Below, piece by piece: positions 12,810 through 33,607 of a stretch of DNA of 34,463 bases. The position numbers and the translations under genes were made by a program. This DNA is from Clostridia bacterium (GTDB taxonomy: Bacteria > Bacillota > Clostridia > Oscillospirales > Acutalibacteraceae): assembly GCA_017517865.1 (NCBI GenBank), contig JAFWYB010000047.1, positions 1 to 34,463 of the forward strand, written 5' to 3'. The first letter of the stretch is position 1. Each line of letters opens with the position of its first letter. The notes under the pieces were generated by a model. That model did not search any database, was not told the origin of the DNA, and worked only from the letters and a program-made list of their open reading frames with translations.

Positions 12810-14504
12810 TTATTTAAGATATTCGGTTGCTACCCAGCCGTTTATACCTGAAGTCAGGTCTGTTACATAAGCCCAGCCCGAAACACCGGATTTATAGCCG
12901 ATAATTTTCACGGGATAGTTAATGGGAACGGTCTTTATAACATCGTAGTCCTTACCGGGTCCCTTTCTCAGATTGAGAGAATAGGTTGTATATTTTGTTT
13001 CACCGCTGCCGCTCTTATCGGGCTGAACGGTATTTTTATTTACCTTTGTAGTATCCTCAATGGGGCGCTCATCCTCAATATTGCTGCTTACTACCCAGCC
13101 GTAGGTACCAAAGCGTGTTGAATAAACATAGCAATATCCTTTTTCCTTTGCAAGCACCTTAACCTCTGCGCCCTTTCCGAGAGCCTGGACCCAGTCTGAC
13201 GAAGCAGAGGGGCCACCCATCATATCGACCTTTTTGGTTGTATAGCCGAGATAGCTCTCCGAAAGATACTTTGAAGGCTTCTGAATCTTTGCATCACCGT
13301 TTATTCCGTATGGATTTACGGTAGTGTCAGGCTTTGTGGTGGAGGGGCTTGTAGTGGTCGGCCTTGTGGTTGAAGGTCTTGTGGTGGAGGGCTTTGTTGT
13401 AGAGGGCTTTGTTGTACCCTCTGCTGTGGGCTCTGTAGTACCTTCGGTTGAGGGCTCAGTTACACCTTCAGTTGAGGGCTCGGTTACTTCATCCTCTGCC
13501 GGTACAGTTGTAAGCACATCATCTGTCAGATCCTCCTCAGAGGTTTGGTCTGCCTCTGTTGTTTCATCAGCGGCATTGGTTTCGCCATCATCCTTGGCTG
13601 AAGGATTGGTTGTATTTACAACCGCAACGTTTTTATCGGTAGTGGTGTCGGGTTTTTCAGGAATAACCTTTTTAACGATGTATCCGCCTGCAACGACAAG
13701 ACAGATAAGAAGAAGACAAAGAACAACAACCCTGGCGGCTGCACCCTTTTTGCCGTTTCCTATATAGGTGTCGTTATCGTCATCGGCAACCTCTTCGAGC
13801 TCTTCCTCGGACTTTTCTTCCTTTTCCTGCTGAACGTAAGCTTCCTGCTCATCCTCGGCGGGGAGAATAACGGGTGTTATGACCTCTACATCCTCCTGCT
13901 CCTCATAAGCAATAAAGGCTTCCTCTGTATCCTCCTCATCGATATAATCTTCATATTCTTCTGCAGCTTCAGCCGATACGGAGGAAAGATCTTCATATTC
14001 GGGCTCCTCTGAGTATCCGCTCTGAGCTTCGGGTTCGTATTCGGGAGGAAGAAATTCCTCTGCAGAAATATCTTCCGCTGTTGCAGGAGCTGACTCTGCC
14101 TCAGGTTCTTCAGCTTCATCCGACTCTGCTTCGGGTTCTTCTGCTGCGGCTGACTCTGCTTCAGCTATAGGCTCTGTATCTGCTGCTTCTTGCTCTTCTG
14201 CCTGTGCAGCATCCGTTTCAGCTACTGTTACCTCTGCTTCAATTTCCTCTGCTGCAGGCTCTTGCTGAACAAGAACTATTTTTTCCGGATCGTATTCGGG
14301 CACCTCTATAACGGGCTCTTCAACAAGAATTTCCTTTACGGGCACTTCAGGAGCCTTTATTGGCTCTGAGCCGAAAATATTGGGCATATAACCGGGTATG
14401 CTTACCTCTTCCTGTTCTGAGCCGTCAAGGCTGATAATCATACCGCATTCGGGGCAAAGCTCACTGCCGTCGGGTATATTGCTTGAACAAAAACTGCACT
14501 TCAT
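12810..14504 (-). CDS. zinc-ribbon, single-pass membrane protein with extracytoplasmic tandem SH3 domains
   Basis: 564 aa. In order: an N-terminal zinc ribbon with CSFC and CPEC at residues 3-6 and 18-21; a long Glu/Ala/Pro-rich acidic stretch to about 245; one transmembrane helix at about 254-277; a Thr/Ser/Pro-rich linker at about 328-395 built of short TEPSTEGT and TKPSTTRP-type repeats; and two bacterial SH3 domains at about 416-475 and 505-564 (LNLRKGPGKDYDVI, GWVATEYL). The topology implies an inside zinc ribbon and outside SH3 domains that probably contact peptidoglycan. An in-frame GTG three codons upstream is rejected for the ATG at 14504, which has AGGAG at 8 bases. Function is unknown; an envelope-linked sensor or scaffold is inference. 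Confidence 0.82.
   Translation of the reverse strand: MKCSFCSSNIPDGSELCPECGMIISLDGSEQEEVSIPGYMPNIFGSEPIKAPEVPVKEILVEEPVIEVPEYDPEKIVLVQQEPAAEEIEAEVTVAETDAAQAEEQEAADTEPIAEAESAAAEEPEAESDEAEEPEAESAPATAEDISAEEFLPPEYEPEAQSGYSEEPEYEDLSSVSAEAAEEYEDYIDEEDTEEAFIAYEEQEDVEVITPVILPAEDEQEAYVQQEKEEKSEEELEEVADDDNDTYIGNGKKGAAARVVVLCLLLICLVVAGGYIVKKVIPEKPDTTTDKNVAVVNTTNPSAKDDGETNAADETTEADQTSEEDLTDDVLTTVPAEDEVTEPSTEGVTEPSTEGTTEPTAEGTTKPSTTKPSTTRPSTTRPTTTSPSTTKPDTTVNPYGINGDAKIQKPSKYLSESYLGYTTKKVDMMGGPSASSDWVQALGKGAEVKVLAKEKGYCYVYSTRFGTYGWVVSSNIEDERPIEDTTKVNKNTVQPDKSGSGETKYTTYSLNLRKGPGKDYDVIKTVPINYPVKIIGYKSGVSGWAYVTDLTSGINGWVATEYLK
13320..13500 (-). repeat. degenerate short tandem repeats encoding the Thr/Pro linker
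   Basis: On the plus strand the units read like GTGGTTGAAGGTCTT and GGCTCAGTTACACCTTCAGT, repeated with small changes. They encode the PSTTKPSTT and TEPSTEG segments of the SH3 protein. Such runs vary in copy number between strains by slippage. Confidence 0.7.
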
Positions 14505-14551
14505 ATATGTCACTCCTGTTATTTAAACTTTTGCACAATAATCTATGTTAT

Positions 14552-14580
14552 ATATTAGCACATAGTAAAATCAATTTCAA
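14552..14580 (-). promoter_or_regulatory. promoter of the SH3-protein / GH2 unit
   Basis: Minus strand: -35 TTGAAA at 14575-14580, 17-bp spacer, -10 TAATAT at 14552-14557, about 48 bases before the ATG of the SH3-protein gene. Confidence 0.72.
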
Positions 14581-14610
14581 TAAGAAAGTATAAATAATAA
14601 CATGTTATGA

Positions 14611-14649
14611 CATAAAAATATCTCCGACATACTGTTGTACATCGGAGAT
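14611..14649 (-). terminator. terminator closing the 14.6-15.1 kb unit (possibly bidirectional)
   Basis: Stem ATCTCCGA (14620-14627) with TCGGAGAT (14642-14649), extended by inner TAC/GTA pairs. T-rich runs follow on both sides. Read on the minus strand it ends transcripts coming from the promoter at 15116-15144. Confidence 0.78.
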
Positions 14650-14824
14650 TATATTTTTAATTTTAACTATCTGTCTTATATGTATCTCTATTTATTCAGC
14701 CTAATATGAGTTTTCTAAACAACGAACGTTTCGGCAGGTTGGCATCTGGCAACCTCTGCCCTCTTTATTTTCGTCACATCAGCTTTTTTACCTGTATTCT
14801 CTTTTATTCCTTTTTCCGAGAATC

Positions 14825-15031
14825 TTACTCCTGATCAGGTATGAGATACTTGTTTTCTTCGGCTTCAATTTCTTCCGGTATTATTAAAAGAAATTTCTCC
14901 AGAAGCCTTTATTCTTTATATATTATATTTAAATCCGCATCGTAGCGACCTGATATCATTTTATGTTCCTTAGCAAAACTTACTTCGGAAATTACCGCTT
15001 CAATTTCTTTACACTGAAACGCTTGACTCAT
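14825..15031 (-). pseudogene. remnant or unusual small gene: 40 codons, in-frame TAA, then 27 more codons
   Basis: The minus-strand frame from ATG at 15031 encodes a 40-residue piece (starting MSQAFQCKEIEAVISEVSFA) ending at TAA 14909-14911. The same frame then stays open for 27 codons (RLLEKFLLIIPEEIEAEENK...) to a second TAA at 14825. Composition looks protein-like on both sides of the stop, which suggests a gene broken by one nonsense change. There is no ribosome site before this ATG and stops lie just upstream, so the 5' end may also be damaged. No family recognised. The whole 14650-15115 stretch has a clear promoter and terminator but no intact gene, so a non-coding RNA is the alternative. 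Confidence 0.4.
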
Positions 15032-15115
15032 TTAATTTTATTTTTATGTTATCAAATCGTACGGTTTACATTAAACAGTACATTGGTAACACCCCTTTCT
15101 TTATCTTGTGGCTTC

Positions 15116-15144
15116 ATTATATATCATTTTCATCAATTCGTCAA
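15116..15144 (-). promoter_or_regulatory. strong promoter of the 14.6-15.1 kb unit
   Basis: Minus strand: -35 TTGACG at 15139-15144, 17-bp spacer, -10 TATAAT at 15116-15121. A ribosome-site-like AAGGGGTG with an ATG six bases later follows about 25 bases on, but that frame stops after five codons. Confidence 0.8.
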
Positions 15145-15199
15145 TAGTTTTCAACAAATAAATATATTTTTATTTATTTTGTATAATCAGTTATGCAAA

Positions 15200-15230
15200 A
15201 ACAGGGCTTCATACGACCTGAAACCCTGTT
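15200..15230 (-). terminator. intrinsic terminator of the FAD oxidoreductase gene
   Basis: Minus strand: a 12-bp stem AACAGGGTTTCA / TGAAGCCCTGTT (one G-U) with a 7-nt loop and a TTTT tail. It lies about 57 bases past the stop at 15287. Confidence 0.85.
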
Positions 15231-15286
15231 GATATATCTTTGCAGATATAGTGTTTTTGCTATTTTAACCAATATGCATTCTGGAC

Positions 15287-16684
15287 TCAAATAAGCTCTC
15301 TGCCCATAAGCACACCCATAACCGATGCCATCATAAGACCTCTTGTCCAGCCTGAGGAGTCGCCGAGGCAGTGAAGCCCCTTTACGTTAGTGTTGAATCT
15401 GTCGTCCATCTTAACGCGATTGGAATAAAATTTAAGCTCTGGTGAATAAAGAAGTGTTTCGGTTGAAGCAAAGCCCGGTACAACGTGATCCATGGCCTTG
15501 ATAAAATTGATTATGTTCATCATAGCACGGTACGGCATAGCGGCTGTGATGTCACCGGCAACCGCATCGGGAAGAGTAGGTCTTACATTGGACTGTGAAA
15601 GCTCCTTTTCCCAGGTTCTCTTACCGTCAAGAATATCACCGAAGCGCTGAACCATAATGTGTCCCGCTCCGAGCATATTTGTAAGCTCGCCCACCTTTTT
15701 TGCGTACTCAATGGGCTGGTTGAAGGGATAGCTGAAATTGTGCGAAACAAGAATTGCAAGGTTTGTATTGTTGCTCTTTAAATCCTTATAGCTGTGACCG
15801 TTTACAACGGCAAGGTCATTATCATAATTCTCCTGACTTACAAAGCCGCCGGGATTCTGACAGAAGGTACGCACCTTATTTTTAAAGGGACCGGGATAAC
15901 CGATAAGCTTTGACTCGTAAAGCACCTCGTTTACCTTTTCGATAATCTCATTTCTTACCTCAACACGTACACCGATATCAACAGTGCCGGGCTGATGGGC
16001 TATATCGTACTCTGCACAGATTTTCTCAAGCCAGTCAGCTCCCCTTCTGCCGGTTGCGATTACGGTATGGTCACCCTCAATTGTCATTTCGTCGCCCTTG
16101 CTGTTTCTCAGATGTACACCCTTACAGGTACCGTCCTCGAGGATGATATCGTAGCATTCGTAGCCGAAGATAATCTCCACACCGTTTGACTGAAGGTACT
16201 TTTCAATGGCAAGGTAGATATCCTGCGCCTTTTCCGTACCCATATGACGGATGGGACAGTCAACGAGCTTAAGGCCTGCCTGAATTGCACGCATACGGAT
16301 TTCCTTTACCTCCTGAGAGTTGCTGATTCCTTCAACGTGTGTATCTGCACCGAATTCAAGATATATTTTATCGGTATAGTCAATGGTTTCCTGAGCCTTC
16401 ATTTCACCTATAAGCTGAGGAAGGTCACCGCCGACCTCATAGCAGAGTGAAAGCTTACCGTCTGAGAAAGCACCTGCACCCGAAAATCCCGTTGTGATGT
16501 GACAGTAGGGCTTACAGTTAACGCATTTCTTTGTTTTGTCTTTGGGACAGTGCCTTTTTTCAACAGGCTGACCCTTTTCAACTATAACAATGCTCTTTTC
16601 TGAGCCCTTCTTGAGCATTTCAATAGCGGTGAAAATACCCGCAGGACCTGCACCGATAATTACAACGTCTTTTTTCATATTCAT
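15287..16684 (-). CDS. FAD-dependent dehydrogenase / NAD(P)/FAD oxidoreductase (HI0933/COG2509-like)
   Basis: 465 aa. The N-terminal Rossmann FAD site reads VVIIGAGPAGIFTA, with an acidic residue at the end of strand 2 (VIVEKG). A second nucleotide motif is TVIATGRRGADW, and the C-terminal FAD contact is GLHCLGDSSGWTRGLMMAS. A cysteine cluster, CPKDKTKKCVNCKPYC, follows the FAD motif and could bind a metal or take part in redox; this is typical of COG2509-like proteins, whose substrate is unknown. The ATG at 16684 has GGAGG 8 bases upstream; a TTG five codons earlier overlaps that site and is rejected. The leader carries a terminator-like hairpin. Confidence 0.85.
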   Translation of the reverse strand: MNMKKDVVIIGAGPAGIFTAIEMLKKGSEKSIVIVEKGQPVEKRHCPKDKTKKCVNCKPYCHITTGFSGAGAFSDGKLSLCYEVGGDLPQLIGEMKAQETIDYTDKIYLEFGADTHVEGISNSQEVKEIRMRAIQAGLKLVDCPIRHMGTEKAQDIYLAIEKYLQSNGVEIIFGYECYDIILEDGTCKGVHLRNSKGDEMTIEGDHTVIATGRRGADWLEKICAEYDIAHQPGTVDIGVRVEVRNEIIEKVNEVLYESKLIGYPGPFKNKVRTFCQNPGGFVSQENYDNDLAVVNGHSYKDLKSNNTNLAILVSHNFSYPFNQPIEYAKKVGELTNMLGAGHIMVQRFGDILDGKRTWEKELSQSNVRPTLPDAVAGDITAAMPYRAMMNIINFIKAMDHVVPGFASTETLLYSPELKFYSNRVKMDDRFNTNVKGLHCLGDSSGWTRGLMMASVMGVLMGRELI

Positions 16685-30147: not shown

Positions 30148-30205
30148 AATAAAAAAGCACCCACAACAAAGTGAGTGCTTTTCGGAAAATGGTCGGAGTG
30201 ACGGG
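30148..30205. repeat. 58-bp direct repeat, copy A (tRNA-Pro acceptor end plus terminator)
   Basis: Identical over 58 bases to 30434-30491, 286 bp apart. Read on the minus strand it holds the last 16 bases of a tRNA-Pro (CCCGTCACTCCGACCA) and its terminator: AAAAGCACTCAC / GTGGGTGCTTTT followed by T. In this copy the tRNA identity ends immediately inside the T arm. Confidence 0.9.
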
Positions 30206-30433: not shown

Positions 30434-30491
30434 AATAAAAAAGCACCCACAACAAAGTGAGTGCTTTTCGGAAAATGGTCGGAGTGACGGG
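30434..30491. repeat. 58-bp direct repeat, copy B (tRNA-Pro end plus terminator)
   Basis: Second copy of the repeat at 30148-30205. Here the tRNA identity continues into the T arm and anticodon loop (30476-30522). The hairpin at 30439-30468 is the tRNA terminator on the minus strand. Confidence 0.9.
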
Positions 30492-30522
30492 ACTTGAACC
30501 CATGGCCTCTTGGTCCCGAACC
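30476..30522 (-). pseudogene. 3'-half of tRNA-Pro(CGG): probable attachment site (att) of an integrated element
   Basis: Minus strand: anticodon loop TTCGGGA (CGG), the 3' stem strand CCAAG, variable AGGCC, T arm ATGGG-TTCAAGT-CCCGT, acceptor CACTCCG, discriminator A and encoded CCA. The 5' half is missing: beyond 30522 no D arm or CGGAGTG acceptor strand occurs. Identity breaking in the anticodon stem and running to the tRNA 3' end is the classic footprint of tyrosine-recombinase integration into a tRNA gene. The foreign DNA then lies at higher coordinates and the intact tRNA would be at the far end of the element, outside the window. No integrase gene is visible here. Confidence 0.75.
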
Positions 30523-30719
30523 GTAAAAGCCTTGTATAATAAGGGCTTTCGGGTGATTTTTAGTGCTTTTGTATCGGAAATCGGTGCTTTCCAAGGCTAC
30601 CCAACACACTGCGTCCACACAGTCCAAGTCCGTAGATGGTCAAAGGTGTGGTCAGAGCAGATTTTTACGAGAACTCGCGCACCTAACCGAGAAAGTAGTT
30701 CATCGTTCTTTCTGCCAAT

Positions 30720-30748
30720 AGTATAGCATACATTCGAAACTATTGCAA
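30720..30748 (-). promoter_or_regulatory. promoter firing toward the truncated tRNA
   Basis: Minus strand: -35 TTGCAA at 30743-30748, 17-bp spacer, -10 TATACT at 30720-30725. No gene with a ribosome site follows before the tRNA-Pro fragment, so the transcript would end at the tRNA terminator. From 30523 to 30887 I see no coding gene on either strand. Confidence 0.6.
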
Positions 30749-30793
30749 GACCCTGCTCAAAATGCAGAATTTGCGGTGCAGTAGTCAAAGAAA

Positions 30794-30834
30794 AGACCTT
30801 GCGAAAAAAGTTGAAATTGTTTCAAAAAAGGTCT
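30794..30834. repeat. nested inverted repeats upstream of the DUF6809-like gene
   Basis: Outer arms AGACCTT (30794-30800) and AAGGTCT (30828-30834); inner perfect repeat TTGAAA-TTG-TTTCAA (30811-30825). A possible promoter, TGGACT at 30834-30839 and TATTTT at 30857-30862 with a 17-bp spacer, starts at its right edge. The repeat could therefore be an operator for the next gene. Confidence 0.5.
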
Positions 30835-30887
30835 GGACTTTCCTCCCCTTCTGTGGTATTTTTGTGTGCTGACAGGAGGTGCAGACC

Positions 30888-31151
30888 ATGAAAAGTATCA
30901 TAAAGGAATTATGGCGAGGAAACGTCATGCCGCCCGAGGACGGCAGACACAACACTCCCGAGATGCAACAGCTGCTGGAATATATCAGCAGACACAACGA
31001 TGACCTGCTCAAATCCATGACGGACGAGCAGAAGAAAATCTTCGAAAAGTACCACGATTGCTGGAGCAAGTACGCAAGCCTTGCCGAAGCAGCCATCTTC
31101 GAGTATGCATTCAGATTAGGAATGCAAATTGCTATAGAGACATTAAAATAA
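30888..31151 (+). CDS. small DUF6809-like protein
   Basis: 87 aa from ATG at 30888 (GGAGG at 8 bases). The N-terminal pattern KSIIKELWRGNVMPPEDG followed by a helical MTDEQKKIFEKYHDCWSKYASLAEAAIFEYAFRLGMQI matches what I recall of the DUF6809 family, short helical proteins common in Bacillota mobile elements and of unknown function. Codon use is richer in G/C than in the next two genes, so it was probably acquired separately. A three-residue upstream extension is open but has no ribosome site. Confidence 0.72.
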   Translation: MKSIIKELWRGNVMPPEDGRHNTPEMQQLLEYISRHNDDLLKSMTDEQKKIFEKYHDCWSKYASLAEAAIFEYAFRLGMQIAIETLK

Positions 31152-31214
31152 TTTGCATCCATACAACCATGTAATGTAATTTTCACAAAACTACTATTAT
31201 TTACAATTATAACC

Positions 31215-31243
31215 TTGACAACTACAACCAAATGGTTTATAAT
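31215..31243 (+). promoter_or_regulatory. promoter of the XRE / radical SAM cassette
   Basis: -35 TTGACA at 31215-31220, 17-bp spacer, -10 TATAAT at 31238-31243: full consensus. Transcription would begin about 25 bases before the XRE ribosome site. Confidence 0.9.
31226..31237. promoter_or_regulatory. inverted repeat in the promoter spacer, candidate XRE operator
   Basis: AACCA-AA-TGGTT, a perfect dyad exactly between the -35 and -10 boxes. This is where a small XRE repressor encoded by the first gene could block RNA polymerase. Confidence 0.5.
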
Positions 31244-31276
31244 ATTATACACAAATATGTTTTTGGAAGGAATACT

Positions 31277-31516
31277 ATGACAAGATCAGAACTGATTAAA
31301 ATTATTTGTCAAAAAAACAATATCAGCCTTTCAGAACTAGCAAGACGAATTGGGCAAACACCGCAGAATTTCAGTAAAAAATTATTACGTAATACTGTTT
31401 CAGATGATGAATTATCAAAAATCTTGCTAGAACTAAACATTGAGTATGAGCAAAAAATTAAATTTTCGGACGGTACTTCAATGGAGATGAAAACTGAACA
31501 AGACTCATTACACTAA
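31277..31516 (+). CDS. XRE-family small DNA-binding regulator
   Basis: 79 aa. A compact helix-turn-helix, LSELARRIGQTPQNFSKKLLRNTVSDDELSKIL, occupies residues about 18-50. A short C-terminal extension contains a beta hairpin-like segment (EYEQKIKFSDGT). The start is ATG at 31277 with AAGGA; the longer open frame upstream lies over the promoter and is not used. It ends 22 bases before the radical SAM gene, sharing one promoter, so it is probably the cassette's own regulator. Strong A/T codon preference, unlike the host genes. Confidence 0.88.
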   Translation: MTRSELIKIICQKNNISLSELARRIGQTPQNFSKKLLRNTVSDDELSKILLELNIEYEQKIKFSDGTSMEMKTEQDSLH

Positions 31517-31538
31517 ATTAAGACTAAGGAGGTCTATC

Positions 31539-32672
31539 ATGAAAAAGAACCATAATGATGAGATGACATATACATCCGAGGAAATACTGAATGATCCCTA
31601 CGGCTTTACTCTCAAGGAGATGACCGATGTTTTGGGAGAACAAGAAGCACAAAATTTATTCAATTTGCTGTATAAAAAGAAGCCAAATCCAAAGTATCAG
31701 ACAGTTAAGATAAAGGAAATTCAACAGGGTGGTGACACAAGTAAATACGCTTTTGAGCTAACAGATGGTTACCGCATTGAAACTGTTTGCATTAAAAGAA
31801 AAACAGGAACAACAGTTTGCGTGAGTACAATGGTTGGCTGCCCTGTTGGTTGTATATTTTGCGAATCTGGTAGCAATGGATTTATTAGAAATTTAACGCC
31901 CTCAGAAATTGTTCAGCAAGTTGTTCTGCTGAAAGAAAAAGTCAATAGAATCGTCTATATGGGGATGGGAGAACCATTGTTTAACTACAATTCTCTTATA
32001 AAATCCATTCATATTTTACGTGATCGAAACGGATACAACTTCCCCACAGACGGAATTACAGTTTCAACTGTAGGCCCTTTGAAACAATTGAAAAAGTTGA
32101 GAGAAGAACACCTAAAAATTCAATTAACGCTTTCACTTCACGCAACTAATCAAACGACAAGAGACAAGGTTATACCGCACATGAGCGGAAACAAAATTGA
32201 AGATGTAGTGGAAGCGGTCCTGTCTTATTCAGAACGCCATAATAGAAAGATTACGATAGCGTATCTGTTATTACCTGGAGTTAATGACAGGCCTTCGGAT
32301 GTTCGTCAATTAAGTCGGTGGTTTCGTGGAAAAAACGTTTTAATTAACTTGTTACAATACAATAACACTAAATGCTTTGATATGAAGAGTCCAAACAAAC
32401 AACAATTGGTTGCATTTAAAAATTTGTTGGAACGTGAAGGCTTAGAGGTGAAGCTTCGTGAATCAAGAGGCGGAAAAATAAAGGCTGCGTGCGGTCAATT
32501 AGTTAGTGAACATAACAAAAAAGGGAGAGTGGCTCCTATGAGTATCCCTCAAAGTAAAAGTTCTACGCGATCGGTCCCCTCCAAAAAAGCAGAGCAGCGA
32601 GCAACCCCCAATAACCCAAACGGAAAAAAAAACAATTTTAAAAACAAAAAAACACGCCGAACCCCGTATTGA
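31539..32672 (+). CDS. radical SAM methyltransferase of the RlmN/Cfr family, divergent
   Basis: 377 aa. The CxxxCxxC [4Fe-4S] motif is C101-PVG-C105-IF-C108. MGMGEP, TVSTVG and LSLHA barrel motifs follow. The two further cysteines of the RlmN/Cfr mechanism are present: C94 seven residues before the cluster, and C318 in AACGQL, which carries the transferable methyl. Family members methylate A2503 of 23S rRNA: RlmN at C2 (housekeeping), Cfr at C8 (resistance to phenicols, lincosamides, oxazolidinones, pleuromutilins, streptogramin A). Differences from both: after the cluster the sequence reads ESGSNGFIRNL, the N-terminal domain is shorter, and about 59 residues follow C318 as a Lys/Arg/Ser/Asn-rich tail. 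Ribosome site AAGGAGG at 6 bases. The target atom cannot be told from sequence. Confidence 0.88.
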   Translation: MKKNHNDEMTYTSEEILNDPYGFTLKEMTDVLGEQEAQNLFNLLYKKKPNPKYQTVKIKEIQQGGDTSKYAFELTDGYRIETVCIKRKTGTTVCVSTMVGCPVGCIFCESGSNGFIRNLTPSEIVQQVVLLKEKVNRIVYMGMGEPLFNYNSLIKSIHILRDRNGYNFPTDGITVSTVGPLKQLKKLREEHLKIQLTLSLHATNQTTRDKVIPHMSGNKIEDVVEAVLSYSERHNRKITIAYLLLPGVNDRPSDVRQLSRWFRGKNVLINLLQYNNTKCFDMKSPNKQQLVAFKNLLEREGLEVKLRESRGGKIKAACGQLVSEHNKKGRVAPMSIPQSKSSTRSVPSKKAEQRATPNNPNGKKNNFKNKKTRRTPY

Positions 32673-32733
32673 TAATCGGCCATACAGTTAAACATTGTAT
32701 TCAGTTTGTAGTGAAGAGGAAAAGTATAAAAAC

Positions 32734-32808
32734 GTGAAAAAGCTCGAATTAATCAATATAAATAAAACTTACGAACATACAAAGCACCAAAACGGTCGAT
32801 GCCTTTGA
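32734..32808 (+). pseudogene. possible ABC-transporter ATPase, first codons only
   Basis: A GTG at 32734 opens a frame reading KKLELININKTYEHTK, the usual beginning of an ABC ATPase (LELxNIxKTY), then runs into kdpD sequence out of frame and stops at 32808. There is no Walker A. I read it as the 5' stub of an ABC gene cut off by recombination into kdpD. The match is short, so chance resemblance is possible. Confidence 0.35.
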
Positions 32809-33607
32809 AAACAGTATTCTGCTTTCGATCCTTGGAGAATGTGCCTTGGCACTTGAGAGCGAAAGAAACGCGCGAGAGAAGGAAGCCTCTGCTATCCTTG
32901 CAGAGCAAGAGAAGCTACGCGCAAATCTGCTCCGCACCATATCTCACGACCTTCGTACACCTCTGACCTCAATATCCGGCAACGCAGACAATCTGCTCGC
33001 AAATGACGAAGCATTTGATGCGGAAACACGCCGACAGATCTATACCGATATTCGTGAGGATTCCGAGTGGCTCATCAGCCTTGTGGAAAATCTTCTGTCG
33101 GTATCCCGTATGGGAGACGGAAAGAGCGACATACGGATGTCCGCCGAGCTTGTGTCCGATGTTATTGATGAAGCGGTCAGACGCACCGAGAAAAATGCAA
33201 GCGAGCATAAGCTCACCGTCAAGGAAAGCGACGGAATACTGCTTGCGCGGATGGATGCAAGACTTATCGTTCAGGTCTTGATCAATCTGATCGACAATGC
33301 GATAAAATATACGCCAAGCGGATCTGAAATAGAGATCTCGGCAGTCGAAAAGGACAATGAAATTGCAATTACCGTAGCGGATAACGGACACGGAATTGCA
33401 GACGAGATAAAGCCCCGTGTGTTCGATATGTTCTACACAGGTGCTGAAAAAATTGCCGATAGTCGCAGAAGTCTGGGTCTTGGACTGGCACTCTGCAAAT
33501 CCATTGTAAACGCTCACGGCGGTGAGATTACAGTAAGTGACAACAAGCCGCACGGTGCGGTATTTACCTTTACACTGCCAAAGGAGGATGTGGAGATCAA
33601 TGAATAA
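32762..33607 (+). pseudogene. kdpD: 5'-truncated sensor histidine kinase KdpD (C-terminal part)
   Basis: The open frame begins after a TAA at 32759; recognisable KdpD sequence starts near 32790 (VDAFENSILLSILGECALALE, in pieces). It carries the whole kinase core: the HisKA box SHDLRTPLTSIS with the phospho-accepting His, the N box NLIDNAIKYTP, the G1 box DNGHGI and the G2 box LGLGLALC. Missing are the N-terminal KdpD/Usp domains and the four membrane helices, so it cannot sense turgor or potassium normally. No kdpFABC genes are in the window. A TTG at 32846 with GGAG upstream could still give a soluble kinase of about 253 aa. Its stop overlaps the kdpE start. Confidence 0.8.

Follow-up and report, generated by a model that had tools for sequence, protein, structure and literature searches.

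The question raised by this locus is what an additional member of the RlmN/Cfr superfamily of radical S-adenosylmethionine (SAM) methyltransferases does in a bacterium that already encodes its own RlmN. The DNA analyzed (the window) comprises positions 1-34,463 of contig JAFWYB010000047.1 in assembly GCA_017517865.1 (95.6% complete), from a Clostridia bacterium of the Acutalibacteraceae. Our results make it likely that the gene belongs to a cassette brought in as cargo by an integrative mobilizable element that has since decayed, and that its product is an MrmA-type macrolide-resistance 23S rRNA methyltransferase. This is the best reading of its function because three lines of evidence converge on it: its position in a clade of its own, its mobility and the macrolide-related genes that neighbor its relatives.

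The protein has the marks of the superfamily, namely a CX3CX2C motif, two catalytic cysteines and the RlmN fold (its closest solved folds are RlmN), and C94, C101, C105, C108 and C318 are invariant across 52 sequences (alignment A1). By analogy with E. coli RlmN, C101, C105 and C108 presumably ligate the 4Fe-4S cluster, C318 carries the methyl group and C94 completes the pair. RlmN is also its best family score, and it shares the GMGEP and ACGQL motifs with that family. However, 268.5 bits against the RlmN model TIGR00048 lies under the cut-off of 290, and the three Cfr models give 174.6-176.4 bits, about a third of their cut-offs (468-550). The N-terminal domain, its extent taken as is usual for RlmN/Cfr proteins, lacks 21 residues that both RlmN and Cfr keep; these are absent in 12/12 aligned members of the clade described below. 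The glutamate at E. coli RlmN position 278, present in 16/16 RlmN rows, is alanine in the clade. Window residues A241 and K237 agree with Cfr, which has A and K where RlmN has E and R. Among ten columns that separate the two families the clade is RlmN-type at five, Cfr-type at three and neither at two. Residues 322-377 form a basic tail with a net charge of +13; this C-terminal tail is basic and disordered in one subclade (A) and short in the other (B), and it might take over RNA binding in place of the missing residues. Values of dN/dS between the three closest copies (0.105-0.153) show purifying selection on the gene.

In a tree of 48 rows, with a pair of support values per node, the enzyme falls in a clade of 14 rows (100/99) that is a lineage apart from the RlmN and Cfr rows; its deeper branching is weakly supported. 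Subclade A (99/97) holds the window protein, L002, L107, L134, L103, L124 and L104, and subclade B (99/94) the proteins whose genes are paired with a Cys-rich KTR gene. Another group, of five rows (100/100) and without the window protein, is made up of Cfr, Cfr(B), Cfr(C), Cfr(D) and L178; the host's own RlmN clusters with its genus. A Rhodobacter plasmid gene (L108, NZ_CP017784, 7797-8807) is sister to the clade at 100/100 and keeps 20 of the 21 residues; it is annotated RlmN and lies between a TetR-family gene on one side and a LysR gene, floR and tet(G) on the other.

A preliminary description of this DNA had put forward an A2503-type methyltransferase, possibly of a new Cfr-like lineage, and pointed to the multidrug resistance conferred by mobile members of the family. 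As leading readings these give way, since the enzyme misses both the RlmN and the Cfr cut-offs, stands in its own clade and has lost the 21 residues; the alternative offered in the same description, an enzyme with a different RNA target, agrees best with the data. A Cfr-like enzyme would methylate C8 of A2503 and confer resistance to phenicols, lincosamides, oxazolidinones, pleuromutilins and streptogramin A (PhLOPSA). Mobility, the alanine and lysine shared with Cfr, and a union of the clade with Cfr as one group that is not rejected (p-AU 0.388) speak for it. So does L178 (G093:C1:1533529-1534344), a genuine relative of Cfr in a related genome (59% identity to Cfr(C) in the tree alignment), which implies that Cfr circulates in these hosts; an MrmA-type gene and an RlmN are encoded by that genome as well. 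Yet the window protein shares 28-29% identity with the four Cfr proteins from plasmids and the diagnostic columns are mixed, and with the poor model scores, the separate supported group and the N-terminal loss we consider this reading quite improbable. A redundant mobile RlmN making m2A2503 (and m2A37 in tRNA) would account for the family score and the fold, and a union of the clade with clostridial and Bacillus RlmN is not rejected when L108 and L101 are included (p 0.356). An apparent rejection of the union with clostridial RlmN, obtained with those two rows left out (p 0.00229), is withdrawn for this reason. A mobile RlmN is nevertheless unlikely given the loss of the 21 residues and of the glutamate, the recurrent association with macrolide genes described below, and the rlmN already present in the host.

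The published protein that the enzyme most resembles is MrmA (macrolide resistance methyltransferase A; WP_002584956.1), which belongs to Tn6105, Tn6110 and Tn7806 of C. difficile and was described from a single element in 2025 (PMC11983580). MrmA, on Tn6105, is reported to be an RlmN-like protein apart from RlmN and Cfr. In an E. coli tolC strain it raises the minimal inhibitory concentration of erythromycin from 2 to 512-1024 and that of pristinamycin IA from 64-128 to 1024; values for tylosin, clindamycin, tiamulin, chloramphenicol and linezolid are not raised (PMC11983580). This profile of macrolide and streptogramin B resistance differs from the PhLOPSA pattern, and the authors propose another adenine as the target (PMC11983580). 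The likeness extends to mobility in Clostridia alongside a chromosomal rlmN, and to the relaxase and large serine recombinases of subclade B elements, comparable to the mobilization gene, two large serine recombinases and sigma factor of Tn6105 (PMC3158075). Unlike MrmA, the window gene belongs to subclade A, sharing about 64% identity with the most frequent form of subclade B, is headed by XRE rather than the Cys-rich KTR gene, encodes a basic tail and lies in a tRNA-integrating element of the tyrosine-integrase kind. Among the literature matches listed, we found no report of a mobile RlmN-like macrolide determinant besides MrmA. Judging from the published MrmA phenotype, the enzyme would probably act on A2058 or an adenine close to it, and not on A2503.

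Is the gene truly an extra and mobile copy, as had been claimed? The host has three RlmN/Cfr-family genes. The housekeeping rlmN, on contig C7, is 38% identical to the window enzyme; a second cassette, on the 3-kb contig C21, runs DUF6809, XRE, enzyme and then a PHP gene, with an enzyme that matches the window enzyme at 92% of residues 1-344. Clade members are absent from all 33 same-genus genomes (best matches at most 40% identity). Neither situation that would have made the gene ordinary, a sole rlmN or a neighborhood conserved in relatives, is therefore found, and we rejected a housekeeping identity for it on these grounds together with the 21-residue loss. Clade-level matches occur in 10/394 other genomes of the order, 7/391 of the class and 2/398 of the phylum; one genome is common to the order and class sets, giving 18 genomes from 12 families besides the host. 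When a further order was sampled around the genome G792, that genome alone had a clade member (1/28). Three plasmid records (67.6, 66.6 and 65.5% identity) and one record in the phage collection (89.3%) carry matches, and viral contigs add further members; a general genome-contig scan listed mostly housekeeping RlmN (best 40%) and is uninformative on clade absence. A 327-amino-acid subclade B protein is letter-identical in ten records, nine of them genomes from seven families, and over 1.1-3.0 kb the flanking DNA agrees at 97.9-100%. Identical proteins with near-identical flanks across families indicate recent transfer. The Cys-rich KTR gene precedes the enzyme gene in 15/23 loci. A gene of the PHP/histidinol-phosphatase family comes after the enzyme gene in three subclade A loci (L002, L103 and L124).

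The features of the window cassette and its surroundings are as follows.

30476..30522, minus strand: 3' half of tRNA-Pro(CGG), left attachment site, by homology with element L107; core TCCCGAACC at 30514-30522

30888..31151, plus strand: gene for a DUF6809 protein of 87 amino acids, first gene of the module (Pfam PF20648, 80.9 bits, cut-off 27)

31215..31243, plus strand: sigma-70-type promoter, TTGACA-17-TATAAT (12/12 matches)

31226..31237, no strand: palindrome AACCA-AA-TGGTT in the promoter spacer, a probable XRE operator

31277..31516, plus strand: gene for an XRE (HTH_26) regulator of 79 amino acids (Pfam HTH_26, 33.9 bits, cut-off 22)

31539..32672, plus strand: gene for the radical SAM methyltransferase of 377 amino acids, RlmN/Cfr superfamily by motifs, tree and fold, presumably MrmA-type

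32788..33607, plus strand: 5'-truncated kdpD of which the kinase half remains (start position taken from the sequence), right edge of the remnant and outside the cassette

The promoter, the 79-residue XRE protein, the 22-base gap and the radical SAM protein with five cysteines, all named in the preliminary description, are borne out, and an AAGGAGG stands ahead of the methyltransferase gene at 31526-31532. That description spoke of a two-gene cassette; both genes stand, but it missed the DUF6809 gene of the same module, which is also present in the host's second cassette and in L107, and that second cassette itself. The genes are A/T-rich, as it had noted: 1-kb windows starting at 31001 and 31501 have GC fractions of 0.348 and 0.372, the majority of others 0.38-0.48. 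The lowest value (0.338, 14501-15500) is unrelated to the cassette. A terminator search of 30850-32850 found none, and the 31251-31545 transcript folds barely better than shuffles (z -1.78), so we do not claim an RNA attenuator.

The island does lie between a tRNA scar and a broken kdpD. The 47 bases of tRNA-Pro(CGG) at the left edge are homologous to the left end of the integrated element L107 (MT835887), a fecal record that carries a DUF6809-XRE-radical SAM block 84% identical to window 30476-32524. This element is 13.2 kb long and has a MobL relaxase and tyrosine integrases; the nine-base core of the window's attachment site stands at both ends, and its rejoined flanks restore an intact tRNA-Pro(cgg). 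MT835887, although labeled bacteriophage, is thus an integrative element in tRNA-Pro(CGG). On the right, the kdpD fragment matches positions 641-885 of the 895-position KdpD model; kinase domains aside, the remaining parts of the model were not found anywhere in the assembly, and the junction could be an assembly join rather than a real edge. Beyond the kdpD fragment the window has no relaxase or integrase, and the element is therefore a remnant. Host contig C53 has an integrase 63% like that of L107. Two identical 58-bp direct repeats (30148-30205 and 30434-30491) each contain a terminator-like stretch and a tRNA acceptor end; some of the intervening sequence recurs incompletely at about a dozen other places in the genome.

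What ties the clade to macrolides is its surroundings. A Mef, RlmA, HflX or tetracycline-protection-type gene lies within 6 kb at 7/28 clade loci; among 80 housekeeping RlmN loci taken as controls, Mef, RlmA and HflX occur at none and weak GTPase-type matches to the tetracycline query at five. At L124 a Mef-family efflux gene is immediately upstream and an RlmA-family methyltransferase gene downstream; L104 reads Mef-like efflux, HflX, radical SAM, tetB(P), tetA(P); and at L125 a TetM/W/O/S-type protection gene (1281 bits, cut-off 1100) is followed by KTR and the radical SAM gene. L126 and L185 have the same Mef (99.6-99.8%), and an RlmA-type gene is found in L185, L127 and L131. HflX and kin of RlmA(II)/TlrB are linked with macrolides.

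Several points weigh against an MrmA-type function. The Mef matches (542 and 351 bits, cut-off 675) and the RlmA match (157, cut-off 303) fall below curated cut-offs, the neighbor queries derive from three of the seven loci that have such genes, the controls come from other taxa and are not mobile, and three viral-contig loci may duplicate genomes already counted. The queried drug genes are absent within 6 kb at 21/28 clade loci, and no other drug gene stands beside the window copy; its nearest relatives, the L107 copy and the one on contig C21 (3 kb), likewise showed none. The unrejected unions with Cfr and with RlmN belong here too, as does the fact that we place MrmA (WP_002584956.1) in the same clade from its published description. 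Loci that have no drug gene nearby are the majority, which would suit an enzyme acting on some other RNA (tRNA, phage or host mRNA) for the fitness or defense of the mobile element, the drug genes being passengers; so would the DNA-methyltransferase operons headed by kin of its XRE. We doubt this strongly, because of the MrmA phenotype, because erm(53) has the same head and because the enzyme, XRE and DUF6809 have no match in the PADLOC library; on this last result we rejected a defense system as such. The resistance function attributed to the enzyme derives by inference from MrmA and from the neighboring genes.

The module ahead of the enzyme bears on how it would be controlled. The DUF6809 and XRE genes ahead of erm(53) on pWB2 share 81.2% DNA identity with window 30960-31495; among 72,556 plasmid records pWB2 is the only one with this erm(53) cassette. 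That cassette resembles ours in having a 23S rRNA methyltransferase behind the head, although Erm is an unrelated N6 methyltransferase. Kin of the XRE protein (38-56% identity) occur in 10/295 other genomes, and in nine the next gene encodes a DNA methyltransferase (five scanned, four by shared sequence), of N6/N4 type in L166-L172 (three of the seven scanned) and C5 type in L173 and L174; in L175 it is a macro-domain gene. Among plasmids, 305 records have such kin, 296 of them from Enterococcus. Of seven inspected, four encode a nucleotidyltransferase in the following gene (by annotation in three, judged from length and position in L145), two have an uncharacterized gene there, and the seventh is pWB2; in one phage record a cyclase-domain gene follows. 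In gene order, a small helix-turn-helix gene ahead of a DNA methyltransferase gene recalls the controller (C) proteins of restriction-modification systems.

The XRE gene stands directly ahead of the enzyme gene, in keeping with the small regulator of its own proposed for this locus; the window type of XRE adjoins the enzyme gene in only 3/23 loci, and L103 has another HTH protein there. The promoter spacer follows the pattern AAYCA-AA-TGRTT. A perfect 5-2-5 palindrome is present at this place in 10/21 loci of the window XRE or its kin, three near-identical plasmids included, and is imperfect in the host's second copy. In two loci its arms covary (AACCA/TGGTT to AATCA/TGATT), and the window has a single occurrence of the 18-base pattern (chance 0.02). 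We infer that the palindrome is an autoregulatory operator through which XRE would limit its own expression and that of the enzyme.

Altogether, we envision that the element entered at tRNA-Pro(CGG), carrying the cassette as cargo, and later decayed. Using the chemistry of RlmN and Cfr, the enzyme would methylate an adenine carbon of 23S rRNA in the macrolide/streptogramin B pocket and so lower the binding of 14-membered macrolides, with XRE holding expression down from the palindrome. More tentatively, a controller of the restriction-modification type may have been captured as the head of rRNA-methyltransferase cassettes, MrmA-type here and erm(53) elsewhere. A burst of rRNA methylation, driven by the perfect promoter upon entry into a new cell, would then be followed by shut-off through AACCA-AA-TGGTT, limiting the cost of ribosome methylation, and the enzyme, having shed part of its RNA-binding domain, would target a carbon of a 23S rRNA adenine other than A2503.

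The clade that emerges is broad, with mobility across at least 12 families, and also occurs outside C. difficile. The two annotated clade plasmid records name the enzyme RlmN, which means that annotation, and probably resistance surveys, overlook these genes. The 21 residues lost from the N-terminal domain are direct structural grounds for expecting that the target is not A2503, and a head common to erm(53) and DNA-methyltransferase operons suggests that mobile methyltransferases of any substrate borrow the same small switch.
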